The notes under the pieces: generated by a model
Told to the model about the DNA's origin: nothing
Database searches by the model: none
What the model saw: the letters and a program-made list of their open reading frames with translations, nothing else
Shown: piece by piece, positions 14,178-18,577 of the stretch
Layout: every line of letters starts with the position of its first letter
Position numbering within the stretch: position 1 is the stretch's first letter
Translations under genes and position numbers: made by a program
From: Haloarcula salinisoli
GTDB lineage: Archaea; Halobacteriota; Halobacteria; Halobacteriales; Haloarculaceae
NCBI RefSeq assembly: GCF_019599405.1
Contig: NZ_RKLQ01000001.1
Location: 1 to 64,000, forward strand
DNA: 64,000 nucleotides
Direction: 5' to 3'

Positions 14178-15608
14178 ATGCAGGGGTACTCCACGGAGCT
14201 CGATGAGTTCCATACGCGGTTCCTCGAGTTGGAGAATGACTTACATCTGTTCGAGCTCACGGTCGACGGGATACCAGTATGGGAACGTCTCCGTGAGGGG
14301 ATTAAAATACAACTCCTGGCCGAAACTAATCTGACCGGAGAAGTCCATCCGGACACAGTCTCCCTGAACGACTCGCTTCGGGCGAGTTACTTATTATGTC
14401 GCAATTTCGCCCGGCGGAACCCGTTTTTGGCTCCCTCAGGGAAACTACTCTTCTTCGGTCACCCTCGCCGGCAGCAGCGAGCGGGACAGTGGTGGGATAT
14501 ATACTGTGACCCGCTCAATCAGGCGGTCGGGCTTGAGACGATACATCTCGAACCAGCTTGGAAGAAAACACATTTCACTCCGACCCCAACGCCGAATCTA
14601 CGGTATACTGACCTCTTCGAGTTCTCCGGGGAGTTGAACGATCACCTGAAGCTGAGTCGGCCGAACGTACCGTCGGAAACCAAGCAACGAATGGAAACAG
14701 CCCAAGAGCGTTTCGAAGCGACGTTCGATGTCACGGTTTCCCTGACAGAACGGCTGTTCTCGATGCTGCGGAGTCGCATTGTCAAGAAACCGCTATACGA
14801 CCGCCTCCTGGCTCGCCTTGACCCACAGTTAGTCGCCATCGTCGCCCACTCCGGCCGAGAGACGTTTATCGAGGCCTGCCACGACGCGGATATCCCGGTC
14901 GCTGAACTGCAACACGGACAGATCAGCCCGTACTCGTACCAGCACGCGTTCCCCGGCGACCGGACGAAAGAAGCCTATCCGGACTATCTACTCACGTTCG
15001 GTGAGTTCTGGGAGACGGCAGCCTCGCTTCCGCTCGAATCGGACCGAATTCAAGCCGTCGGATACCCGTACCTCGAACAGGAACTCCTAGAGCGCCGACC
15101 GCTCGAACAGGGCCAGCAGGTGGTGTTCATCTCGACACCGGAAGCCGGGCCAGTGCTCTCCGAGATAGCCGCCGACCTGAGCGCCCGACCGGACATCCCG
15201 TACCAGTTCGTATACAAGCTCCATCCGGACGAGTTCGGCAGCTGGGAAACTGACTATCAATGGCTCGCGGACGCGCCGTTGTCCGTCGTCGGGCAGGATG
15301 GTCCCTCGCTGTACGATCTCTTCGCCGAATCGTCCGTTCAGGTCGGTGTCGGATCGACCGCACTCTACGAGGGGCTCGCGTTCGAGCTAGCGACCTATCT
15401 GGTCCGGGAACCGACCATCGAGTGGCTGGCTCCTGTCATCGAGGCGGGCGAGGCCACAGTCGTCGAGAGCGCGGACGACCTCGCCGAGCAACTCGCCGCC
15501 CCGGACCATCGCCCGGTCGAGCGCGAGAAGTACTTCCGACCCGGCGCGGTCGAGACCGCCGTCTCGGTCCTCGAGGAACTCGCCGAGACCGGAACAGTTC
15601 GTGAGTGA
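14178..15608 (+). CDS. CDP-glycerol/capsule-type transferase (GT-B like)
   Basis: A 476-residue protein without membrane helices. The central motif VAELQHGQISPYSYQHAF and the later stretches YKLHPDE and VGVGSTALYEGLAFELATYL are those of the CDP-glycerol glycerophosphotransferase / capsule-transferase superfamily, where the Gln-His-Gly loop and the His-Pro and Gly-Ser-Thr loops bind the nucleotide-linked donor. It is likely to add a sugar or polyol-phosphate to a surface polymer. It begins two bases after the ABC flippase stop and is surely co-transcribed with it. Haloarchaeal donors for this family are not settled, so the substrate is left open. Confidence 0.75.
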   Translation: MQGYSTELDEFHTRFLELENDLHLFELTVDGIPVWERLREGIKIQLLAETNLTGEVHPDTVSLNDSLRASYLLCRNFARRNPFLAPSGKLLFFGHPRRQQRAGQWWDIYCDPLNQAVGLETIHLEPAWKKTHFTPTPTPNLRYTDLFEFSGELNDHLKLSRPNVPSETKQRMETAQERFEATFDVTVSLTERLFSMLRSRIVKKPLYDRLLARLDPQLVAIVAHSGRETFIEACHDADIPVAELQHGQISPYSYQHAFPGDRTKEAYPDYLLTFGEFWETAASLPLESDRIQAVGYPYLEQELLERRPLEQGQQVVFISTPEAGPVLSEIAADLSARPDIPYQFVYKLHPDEFGSWETDYQWLADAPLSVVGQDGPSLYDLFAESSVQVGVGSTALYEGLAFELATYLVREPTIEWLAPVIEAGEATVVESADDLAEQLAAPDHRPVEREKYFRPGAVETAVSVLEELAETGTVRE

Positions 15609-15694
15609 GAGGGCCCTATCAGTCCACACCAGACCGGTTACAGGTCAGACATATCGGCCTAAAACTACTTGCATCTCTCCGCCTCCCTGATGGT

Positions 15695-16042
15695 ATGACT
15701 GACTCGCCAGTCGCCAGTGCCCTGGACGGATTCGTCGAGATGACGGAGTGGCTCTGGTGGCTCGCCCTCGGGTTCTACGGCATCGGCGACCTGCTGACTA
15801 CATCCGTGACTGTATTCGTCACACCGCTGGCAGAGGGCAACCCAGCCGTCGACGCGATTATCTCGAGCTACGGATTCGGTGGTTTCGTCGCGCTCAAGAT
15901 TCTGACCCTGGTCGTTGGCTACGTTACCTTCCGTCTCGTCGACACCCCGCACGGCGTGGGCGTTCCACTTGCCTTTGCAGTTGTCGGTGTGGGCCTCACG
16001 ACCTGGAATCTGGCCGTCATCAGTTACACGATGACCGCCTGA
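15695..16042 (+). CDS. Small membrane protein with D-LTT / E-GNP motif
   Basis: A 115-residue protein with about four hydrophobic segments. The motif GDLLTTSVTVFVTPLAEGNP recalls the small membrane proteins annotated DUF5658, which share D-x-x-T-T and E-x-N-P; this is recalled, not searched. The ATG at 15695 is used because a TATA-like sequence (CTAAAAC, about 15659-15665) lies 30 bases before it. Function unknown. Confidence 0.65.
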   Translation: MTDSPVASALDGFVEMTEWLWWLALGFYGIGDLLTTSVTVFVTPLAEGNPAVDAIISSYGFGGFVALKILTLVVGYVTFRLVDTPHGVGVPLAFAVVGVGLTTWNLAVISYTMTA

Positions 16043-16315: not shown

Positions 16316-16924
16316 ATGACAGATGAGAATCCCGACTCCGACGGCGCGGAGACGACGGCCGAGACACCACTCGATCGCCGGACAGTACTCAAAATAGGAG
16401 CTGTGTTCGGTGGCTGGGTCGCTGTCGCGGCCGGGACGGGCGGATTTCTCTTCGGGCGGGACGAGCCGGACCCACCATCACAACAGTTCGGATACGGTGG
16501 AACACCGGTCTCTACTGGGACCGAAAGCACGCCGACAGCGACAGATACCACGCCCACCGGAACCGAATTCACGCCCTCGACACCCACTCTCGACCAGCCC
16601 AGACAGACACCGTCAGCGCCGGACGAATCGACTTCTACACAGTCCTCTGGGACGGAAGGGACGACGTCTGGTAGTGGCGGTGGTGGAAGCGAACCCGGAG
16701 AGACTGAGCGAGGCACTGATACGGAGACAACTGAGAGCGAAAATGACCCCGAAACGACCACGTCATCTGAAACCACCGGCGAGACCGGTACGGTGACGCC
16801 AACACCGACTGATACGGAAACGGCGACATCCACGGAGATGTCGACAGATTCCGGTTCTGGACTCGGGACGCAGGGGTACGGGGAGCACGGCTACGGTGGC
16901 GTCGTTAAGGAAGGCCAAACATGA
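16316..16924 (+). CDS. Tat-type surface stalk protein with GYGG tail
   Basis: A 202-residue protein. Residues 18-48 form a twin-arginine signal or anchor (LDRRTVLKIGAVFGG followed by a hydrophobic run). Directly after it comes QQFGYGGTP, then about 110 residues of Thr, Ser, Glu, Gly and Pro with almost no other residues, a typical O-glycosylated stalk. The end is GTQGYGEHGYGG plus a short tail. No enzymatic domain is present. The next gene shares both the FGYGG box after the signal and the QGYGE-GYGG tail, so the two are relatives in architecture. I take it to be an exported or anchored surface protein; what the GYGG tail does is unknown. Confidence 0.6.
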   Translation: MTDENPDSDGAETTAETPLDRRTVLKIGAVFGGWVAVAAGTGGFLFGRDEPDPPSQQFGYGGTPVSTGTESTPTATDTTPTGTEFTPSTPTLDQPRQTPSAPDESTSTQSSGTEGTTSGSGGGGSEPGETERGTDTETTESENDPETTTSSETTGETGTVTPTPTDTETATSTEMSTDSGSGLGTQGYGEHGYGGVVKEGQT

Positions 16925-17047: not shown

Positions 17048-18577
17048 ATGAGTAACAGGGATACAAAAGCCGGTGAGGATTCGAGTGGAGAGATGACACT
17101 CGAGGAGTGGATGCGACAGAAAGAGTCCCTGGAAAGCGACCGTACCGCAAGCGAGAAGCAGAGGCAGTCGGAGGATAGACCGGCTGTCTATACCGTCTCT
17201 GAAGCACTCATGTCCTCGTTCGACCGCATCTGCGAGGGTCTACCGCTGACCGTCGGCCAGACGAGCCACTCCGGCCTCCAGGCAGAGTATATCGGTGTCA
17301 TCAGGCGGGTCGACGAGTCCCTCGACAGGGTCATTACGGCGGCAGATATCGAGCGGGAGACGCAGTACAACATCGCGCACATCACCGAGACGTTCGGGGG
17401 CTGGCACGCGGCGCTCGAGGCGGCCGGTATCGAGATTGAGTCACAGGTCCGCCTGGAGATTGCCCGTCTCTATCGGGAACTCGGTCATCCGCCATCACCA
17501 GCTGAGATGAACGAACACGGCTATCTCAGTTCGACGATGGTTGCGAACACGTTCGATTCCTACGACCAGGCGGTCGAACAGGTCGTCTCCACGTCGGACC
17601 CGACCCCGTACCGGGACGGTCTCGCGAGTCACACCGCTCGAATCGTTCCGGCCGGGACGCTACTTGCTGACTACACCGACCGGCTCCCGGCCCCTGCCGC
17701 CGTCACCGAACGTACCGGGACCGCACTACGACGGACACGTGATTCGAGTACACGGGTGATAGAGACGGTCGCGACCCGTGTCAGCGAGATCGACTCTCCG
17801 TCAGCACTCTCCGGCGCCGCGTTGCTACCGGATGCACCGACGCGGTCGGTCCAGACCGTGCTCCCGGATACGGGCGAGTCGTTCGGCCGCCTCCGTGAGA
17901 CGGCAACGGACGTCAGTCAGGAGCGACGGGACTTCCTCAAATATGCGGGGCTCTCGGTCACCATCGCGGCGGGCACCAGTTCCAGTGACGTGCTGTTCGG
18001 TTCGGACAGCGACCCGGAGTACGCCCTGTCGTTTGGCTACGGTGGTATCCCGCTCGGGTCGAGCGGCCAATCCGACGGTGACAGTCAAGCGGGCGCCCCG
18101 GCGCCACAGCCGACCACGACCGCGGAACAGACCCAGACCCCGGCCGACACGCAGACGCCGGTCACGGAACGGACTCCGACGCCGACTGCAACGACGACTC
18201 CCACGCCCGACGATTCGACCGCCGGCGATAACTCTACGGGCTCAGACAGCGGGACAACCTCCGGTACGAGCGACACAGATACCACAACTGATTCGGACAC
18301 TTCGACATCGTCCGGGTCAACTGACTCGGGTTCAGGAAGCGGGGGCGACACGGGTGACTCGGATTCAGGAAGCGGGGGCGACACGGGTGACTCGGGTTCA
18401 GGAAGCGGGGGCGACACGGGTGACTCTGATTCAGGAAGCGGTGACGACACGGGCGACTCTGATTCAGGAAGCGGTGACGACACGACCAGCACCGAACCGA
18501 ACCGATATAACGCGGATTTCAACACTGCCGAACAGGGGTACGGTGAGCAGGGATACGGCGGTGCCACGTCGGCCTGA
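17048..18577 (+). CDS. HEAR-repeat protein with internal Tat motif, Thr/Ser stalk and GYGG tail
   Basis: A 509-residue protein of unusual make-up. Residues 82-130 (ITAADIERETQYNIAHITET then FGGWHAALEAAG) and 134-180 (YRELGHPPSPAEMNEHGYLS, then FDSYDQAV) look like two homing-endonuclease-associated repeats, small DNA-binding-type units also found next to HNH domains. At residues 292-305 there is ERRDFLKYAGLSVT, a consensus Tat motif in mid-protein, followed by a short hydrophobic stretch and LSFGYGG. Residues 340-490 are a Thr/Ser/Gly/Asp stalk with an 11-residue repeat, and the end is AEQGYGEQGYGG. The ATG 17048 start is preferred to 17012. If the Tat motif works as an anchor, the DNA-binding-like part would stay inside and the stalk outside. 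Function unknown. Confidence 0.65.
   Translation: MSNRDTKAGEDSSGEMTLEEWMRQKESLESDRTASEKQRQSEDRPAVYTVSEALMSSFDRICEGLPLTVGQTSHSGLQAEYIGVIRRVDESLDRVITAADIERETQYNIAHITETFGGWHAALEAAGIEIESQVRLEIARLYRELGHPPSPAEMNEHGYLSSTMVANTFDSYDQAVEQVVSTSDPTPYRDGLASHTARIVPAGTLLADYTDRLPAPAAVTERTGTALRRTRDSSTRVIETVATRVSEIDSPSALSGAALLPDAPTRSVQTVLPDTGESFGRLRETATDVSQERRDFLKYAGLSVTIAAGTSSSDVLFGSDSDPEYALSFGYGGIPLGSSGQSDGDSQAGAPAPQPTTTAEQTQTPADTQTPVTERTPTPTATTTPTPDDSTAGDNSTGSDSGTTSGTSDTDTTTDSDTSTSSGSTDSGSGSGGDTGDSDSGSGGDTGDSGSGSGGDTGDSDSGSGDDTGDSDSGSGDDTTSTEPNRYNADFNTAEQGYGEQGYGGATSA
18323..18487 (+). repeat. 33-bp tandem repeat, five copies, coding
   Basis: Five tandem 33-base units encode DSxSGSGGDTG-type 11-residue repeats in the stalk of the preceding protein. 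The second and fourth units differ from the others by a few substitutions (DSD versus DSG, GGD versus GDD). Such in-frame minisatellites change copy number easily. Confidence 0.85.

Follow-up and report, generated by a model that had tools for sequence, protein, structure and literature searches.

A haloarchaeal protein that probably joins paired HNH repeats, an internal twin-arginine segment and a Gly-Tyr-Gly-tipped stalk

The gene P0001 of Haloarcula salinisoli encodes a protein of 509 amino acids which probably combines a repeat domain of the cytoplasmic type, an export signal in mid-chain and a Thr/Ser-rich outer stalk. This odd layout is probably real, because three relatives join a MinD-like domain to the same outer part. 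With moderate confidence, P0001 was interpreted as a bitopic N-in/C-out protein with a Gly-Tyr-Gly (GYG) tail, in which an internal Tat signal-anchor would keep the repeats inside and the stalk outside the cell. The gene was analysed within a stretch of 64,000 nucleotides, called here the window, where the following features were located.

17048..18577, + strand: P0001, with HNH_repeat pair, linker, internal Tat-like segment, FGYGG, stalk and GYG tail; open frame with even GC3 bias
17048..17266, + strand: N-terminal tail, residues 1-73, of charged composition; no signal peptide or known domain found
17285..17434, + strand: HNH_repeat copy 1, residues 80-129 (PF18780)
17456..17581, + strand: HNH_repeat copy 2, about residues 137-178 (PF18780; AlphaFold2)
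17594..17911, + strand: linker, residues 183-288, partly helical and unusually non-acidic (fraction DE 0.13, KR 0.11)
17921..17941, + strand: twin-arginine motif ERRDFLK, residues 292-298 (sequence; family HMM)
17942..17998, + strand: weakly hydrophobic segment, residues 299-317 (13-residue Kyte-Doolittle maximum 1.34)
18032..18046, + strand: FGYGG, residues 329-333, 36 residues past the twin arginine
18068..18517, + strand: Ser/Thr/Asp/Gly-rich stalk, about residues 341-490 (composition)
18536..18562, + strand: tail motif GYGEQGYGG, residues 497-505, with the stop 4 residues later
16316..16924, + strand: upstream paralogue of 202 aa, with N-terminal Tat signal, FGYGG (16487), stalk and GYGEHGYGG (16874)
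15605..16042, + strand: small membrane protein with the motif GxGDLLTT, directly upstream of the GYG gene pair

The frame of P0001 runs uninterrupted from the ATG at 17048 to the stop at 18577. GC3 stays between 0.57 and 0.88 over its entire length, the domain boundary shows no break, and no frame damage was detected.

The repeat domain

An earlier note on this DNA had recognised residues 82-180 as repeats of the homing-endonuclease type. Profile search agreed with this, as the Pfam model PF18780 (HNH_repeat) was matched in two copies with 68.9 bits (cut-off 26, E=4.7e-19). Using 17 relatives, AlphaFold2 predicted residues 74-183 to be a compact domain of eight well-predicted helices, four in each copy (pLDDT 94.2, pTM 0.81), and the core residues of both copies are retained. 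From their sequence, the repeats may be capable of DNA binding. The earlier note described such repeats as normally DNA-binding, which was not supported for P0001: the domain has a net charge of -11, falling inside the range of acidic relatives, and residues 113-115 and 166-168, often Lys or Arg in relatives, read T-E-T and A-N-T in P0001. A fold search of the PDB with the repeat model gave no match at E<=0.001; TetR-type HTH proteins ranked at the top of the list, at a non-significant E>=0.19. Sequence search did not reveal any credible solved structure of the repeats either.

The domain has its closest relatives in large proteins of haloarchaea, where the repeats are likewise paired; one of these proteins (L154) shares 40% identity, with L155-L161 being similar. 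These proteins lack a Tat stalk and some of them carry HNH nuclease or helicase parts, whereas P0001 has no nuclease and runs on into the Tat stalk. Alignments of P0001 to its relatives in 391 Halobacteria genomes mostly stop within or just past the repeats. The fusion looks lineage-specific, and so far a singleton, because in none of these 391 genomes was another protein found with HNH_repeats joined to a Tat stalk; the combination was also absent among tail-motif genes in 146 genomes of the window's taxonomic family. As to the architecture claimed previously, the N-terminal region does match the repeat family, and the linkage of repeats to Tat stalk was not found in homologues from these genomes, which counts in part against it.

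Two of the large relatives, L154 and L159, are otherwise unannotated beyond PF18780. Both contain an extra repeat (WSxIDRKLLYSVGDxHPDEYEEEFGS) and a conserved segment preceding the C-terminal repeat pair, which are possibly related to nucleic acids. A virus origin of P0001 was also considered and rejected: the single PHROGs match (phrog_22655, 3.9e-8) covers only the repeats, and no relatives of P0001 were found in viral contigs.

The twin-arginine segment and the exported half

The twin-arginine motif ERRDFLK, previously reported at residue 292, was found at 292-298. By composition, RRxFLK is expected about 1e-5 times in a chain like P0001. An HMM was built for the module from the twin arginine to GYGG, leaving P0001, its paralogue and two MinD fusions out of the training set. 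It matched residues 289-336 of P0001 with 24.4 bits (E=4e-6 for 3500 proteins), compared with 7.4 bits at most on 300 shuffles. Curated Tat models recognised the right site at a score below threshold (TIGR01409, 14.3 bits vs 16.7). Behind the motif, the Thr/Ser stalk described before is borne out by the composition of residues 341-485, with 43% Ser+Thr, 20% Asp+Glu and 1% Lys+Arg. This stalk may be glycosylatable, as the earlier note had it; one N-sequon is present, at 395. The earlier note had overlooked FGYGG, GYGEQGYGG and the paralogue of the exported half in the neighbouring gene. As judged by its motifs, the gene at 16316-16924 is an ordinary GYG-tail member and a paralogue of the exported half of P0001. 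Because of the family HMM match and this paralogue next door, the Tat-stalk half is considered on sequence grounds to be a true exported module.

The hydrophobic segment of P0001 is the lowest of the family (1.34 vs 1.41-2.42), the two measured MinD fusions being the highest. Since it is the weakest of the GYG-tail family, its function as an internal Tat signal is something that we infer, and for the same reason insertion is less certain for P0001 than for these MinD fusions. Counted from the ATG, the motif starts at residue 292, away from the N-terminus, and since no Cys comes after it, a lipobox is missing. Composition changes about the segment, from a linker with KR 0.11 and DE 0.13 to a stalk with KR 0.01 and DE 0.20. 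Such a non-acidic linker and acidic stalk agree with the former being inside and the latter outside.

Actinobacterial Rieske proteins are a documented case of weakly hydrophobic internal segments that depend on Tat; in these proteins the segments come after Sec-inserted helices, and the exported part is a cofactor domain (eLife 26577). P0001 shares with them the internal twin arginine ahead of a membrane segment of low hydrophobicity, but has a soluble domain ahead of it and a stalk behind; a soluble domain before the Tat motif differs from the documented case. Haloarchaeal Tat (lipo)proteins (PMC2945643) resemble P0001 in their RRxFLK-type motif, modest hydrophobicity and outward domain, and differ from it in that the signal of P0001 lies 292 residues in and the lipobox cysteine is missing.

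Alternatively, one frame may yield two products, with an ordinary Tat stalk protein starting at the GTG at 17858 (residue 271) and the HNH_repeat part being a separate or vestigial fused gene. This in-frame GTG lies 22 codons ahead of the twin arginine and would give an n-region of normal length (22 residues); the exported half is self-contained, in exactly the layout that the paralogue at 16316-16924 has. Against it, nothing like a start signal was recognised ahead of the GTG, codon bias is even along the unbroken P0001 frame, and the MinD fusions place their twin arginine 300-380 residues in, showing that long cytoplasmic parts recur. An internal start is regarded as unlikely.

The weakness of the segment, together with the sub-threshold Tat models and a genus without any P0001 orthologue, could also indicate that export has been lost, the fused signal being degenerate and the whole chain cytoplasmic or the gene decaying. 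The preservation of the twin arginine, spacing, FGYGG, acidic stalk and exact tail motif in an undamaged frame makes this quite improbable. Finally, Tat signals mostly get cleaved, and the segment of P0001 is short and weakly hydrophobic. Cleavage at or after it would release the stalk or leave it anchored outside and would set the HNH_repeat part free in the cytoplasm, where it might be a regulator whose release follows a signal. P0001 has neither a lipobox cysteine nor a clear cleavage motif and its locus shows no sign of a dedicated protease, so that such processing seems very unlikely.

The GYG-tail family and its MinD-type fusions

Using the tail motif alone, 34 distinct haloarchaeal tail proteins were gathered. 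A [FYV]GYGG-like motif is located 31-47 residues past the twin arginine in 30 of them, and at least one of the four others is cut by the end of its locus. The association of twin arginine and [FYV]GYGG is independent because the collection used only the tail; the expression itself was tuned after inspection. The tail of P0001 shows GYGxxGYGG no more than about 8 residues from the stop, the same pattern by which members were collected and therefore circular when taken alone, while its FGYGG, which follows the twin arginine by 36 residues, lies in a spacing range that was unused in collecting. A bare tail-motif HMM is weak on P0001 (E=0.16), and for this reason its membership rests on the signal module and the exact motif.

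As a DNA pattern, GYG[E/D]xGYGG occurs in 19 of 391 Halobacteria genomes and in 16 of the 146 genomes of the window's taxonomic family. The variant GYGxGGYGG was detected in 23 of the 391, 13 of them from the same genus; the one that was read (L245) is a C-terminal tail. A scan of 84,980 species genomes returned end-of-protein tail matches with matching architecture from Halobacteria only, and the bacterial matches were rejected as internal or, by appearance, due to chance. The genome of P0001 contains a further gene with YGYGG and GYGEYGYGG (C1:820103). Members vary widely in the length of the n-region ahead of the twin arginine, and most of them possess a lipobox. Between the two signatures they hold Laminin-G-type domains or the stalk alone, and other parts resemble, by eye, PPC and CBM6-type domains. 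No NCBIfam model exists for the signatures, no description of them was found in PMC2945643, and the family was unnamed in Pfam, NCBIfam and the literature searched. From their sequences, the GYG-tail proteins appear to be a family of haloarchaeal Tat surface proteins, often with a lipobox, and their signatures appear to be new. GYGxGGYGG repeats were also observed straight after the Tat signal, ahead of exported domains and not C-terminal, in L032 (G301), L244 (5092-6222), L261 and L262.

Three relatives from other genera connect a MinD/ParA-type ATPase to the same succession of twin arginine, hydrophobic stretch, FGYGG, stalk and GYG tail. The ATPase domains of L183 (Haloplanus ruber, 615 aa; TIGR01969 E=3.9e-29), L184 (567 aa; E=1.3e-17) and L244 (MinD-like N-terminus; E=6.9e-11) are all below threshold in the curated models of archaeal MinD, BcsQ and polysaccharide tyrosine autokinase ATPases (TIGR01969, TIGR03371, TIGR01007), which correspond to the cytoplasmic domain of these fusions. 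L183 and L184 have the twin arginine behind the ATPase, 300-380 residues from the start of the frame; a hydrophobic stretch and GFGYGGTP come next, then a stalk rich in Thr and lastly GYGEGGYGGTV. In L244, which was found via the neighbouring small membrane protein and not by the tail motif, TRRGALAAL, FGYGGTPV, the stalk and GYGSGGYGGVA follow. P0001 has HNH_repeats in the place of the ATPase, and as far as the sequences tell, its architecture is one that recurs with another inner domain.

An inside domain with an outside stalk, as the earlier note had pictured it, is the most economical reading, because the repeats and the Tat-stalk module are both real and three MinD/ParA relatives display the same module. 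The earlier interpretation as a whole is supported in part, for the repeat domain and the exported module, to which the MinD-type parallels are added; DNA contact and DNA uptake remain unsupported. The absence of further HNH_repeat fusions (0 of 391), the weakest segment of the family, the sub-threshold curated Tat models and the undocumented order with the soluble domain first all count against a bitopic P0001.

Locus context and proposed function

The neighbours of P0001 in the window encode DUF2206, a flippase, a glycosyltransferase, an ABC transporter, an epimerase and a methyltransferase, and form a surface-polysaccharide locus. Among these annotated, polysaccharide-type neighbours nothing was recognised as a gene for competence or pili, and the role in DNA uptake proposed earlier was not supported. 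The GxGDLLTT protein of the window, which has no Pfam match, is 37% identical (E=3e-20) to a neighbour of the GYG gene in L184. Homologues adjoin GYG genes in L184 (7071-7409) and L244 (7885-8229), both of them MinD-type fusions. Since 63 of 391 Halobacteria genomes have homologues and the GxGDLLTT family is thus a common one, its link with GYG genes across the window, L184 and L244 is suggestive and not exclusive.

Other genes near members of the family were recorded. In the polysaccharide locus of the window, a 476-residue protein (14178-15608) without Pfam match looks by eye like capsule or CDP-glycerol-type glycosyltransferases, and a homologue lies near the GYG gene in L186. In about nine loci among L050, L080, L085, L127, L185, L186, L189-L192 and L202, the gene directly 3' of the GYG-tail gene codes for a signal-less protein with the conserved start MTENHDYxTPxxGTLDWHxPLNxNFExxDTDVExRD (TPxxGTxDWHxPLNxNF), the copy in L127 carrying a C-terminal Peptidase_S74 tail-fibre chaperone domain. 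Lasso-peptide-like gene sets, with PqqD-like, transglutaminase-like protease, Asn-synthase-like, HPr-kinase-like and ABC transporter genes, adjoin GYG-tail genes in L183 (8125-9426), L188 (3866-7617) and L244 (8353-13682).

Domain, motif, family membership and recurrence of the layout were computed, and from these we infer the insertion, topology and docking of a bitopic P0001 and the role of its repeats as follows. The short cytoplasmic signal region usual in the family would have been swapped for a folded domain of two HNH_repeats, and residues 292-317 with the twin arginine would serve as a Tat-dependent signal-anchor inside the chain. The cytoplasm would retain the repeats together with the linker, which is relatively basic, and the acidic Thr/Ser stalk would project to the exterior, FGYGG forming the base and GYGEQGYGG the tip. 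What the Gly-Tyr signatures dock to is probably another component of the surface, such as polysaccharide or fibre machinery belonging to the locus. At this surface site the inner domain probably attracts or holds a partner, which may be nucleic acid, a role which the MinD-type ATPase seems to play in the three relatives. More tentatively, a modular class of haloarchaeal Tat-inserted bitopic proteins could be imagined, in which exchangeable inner domains (MinD-type ATPases, HNH_repeats) on an exported, GYG-tipped stalk would form a physical link between the cell interior (the nucleoid or a positioning system) and an apparatus of polysaccharide or fibres at the surface, with the new Gly-Tyr-Gly tail signature as the means of recognition.

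If the internal Tat segment works, Tat can insert a protein while leaving a large folded domain in the cytoplasm, a topology which is not documented in the cited literature. A family of surface proteins unnamed in Pfam, NCBIfam and the searched literature would be marked out by the GYG signatures, and its members may help to construct or anchor the haloarchaeal surface.
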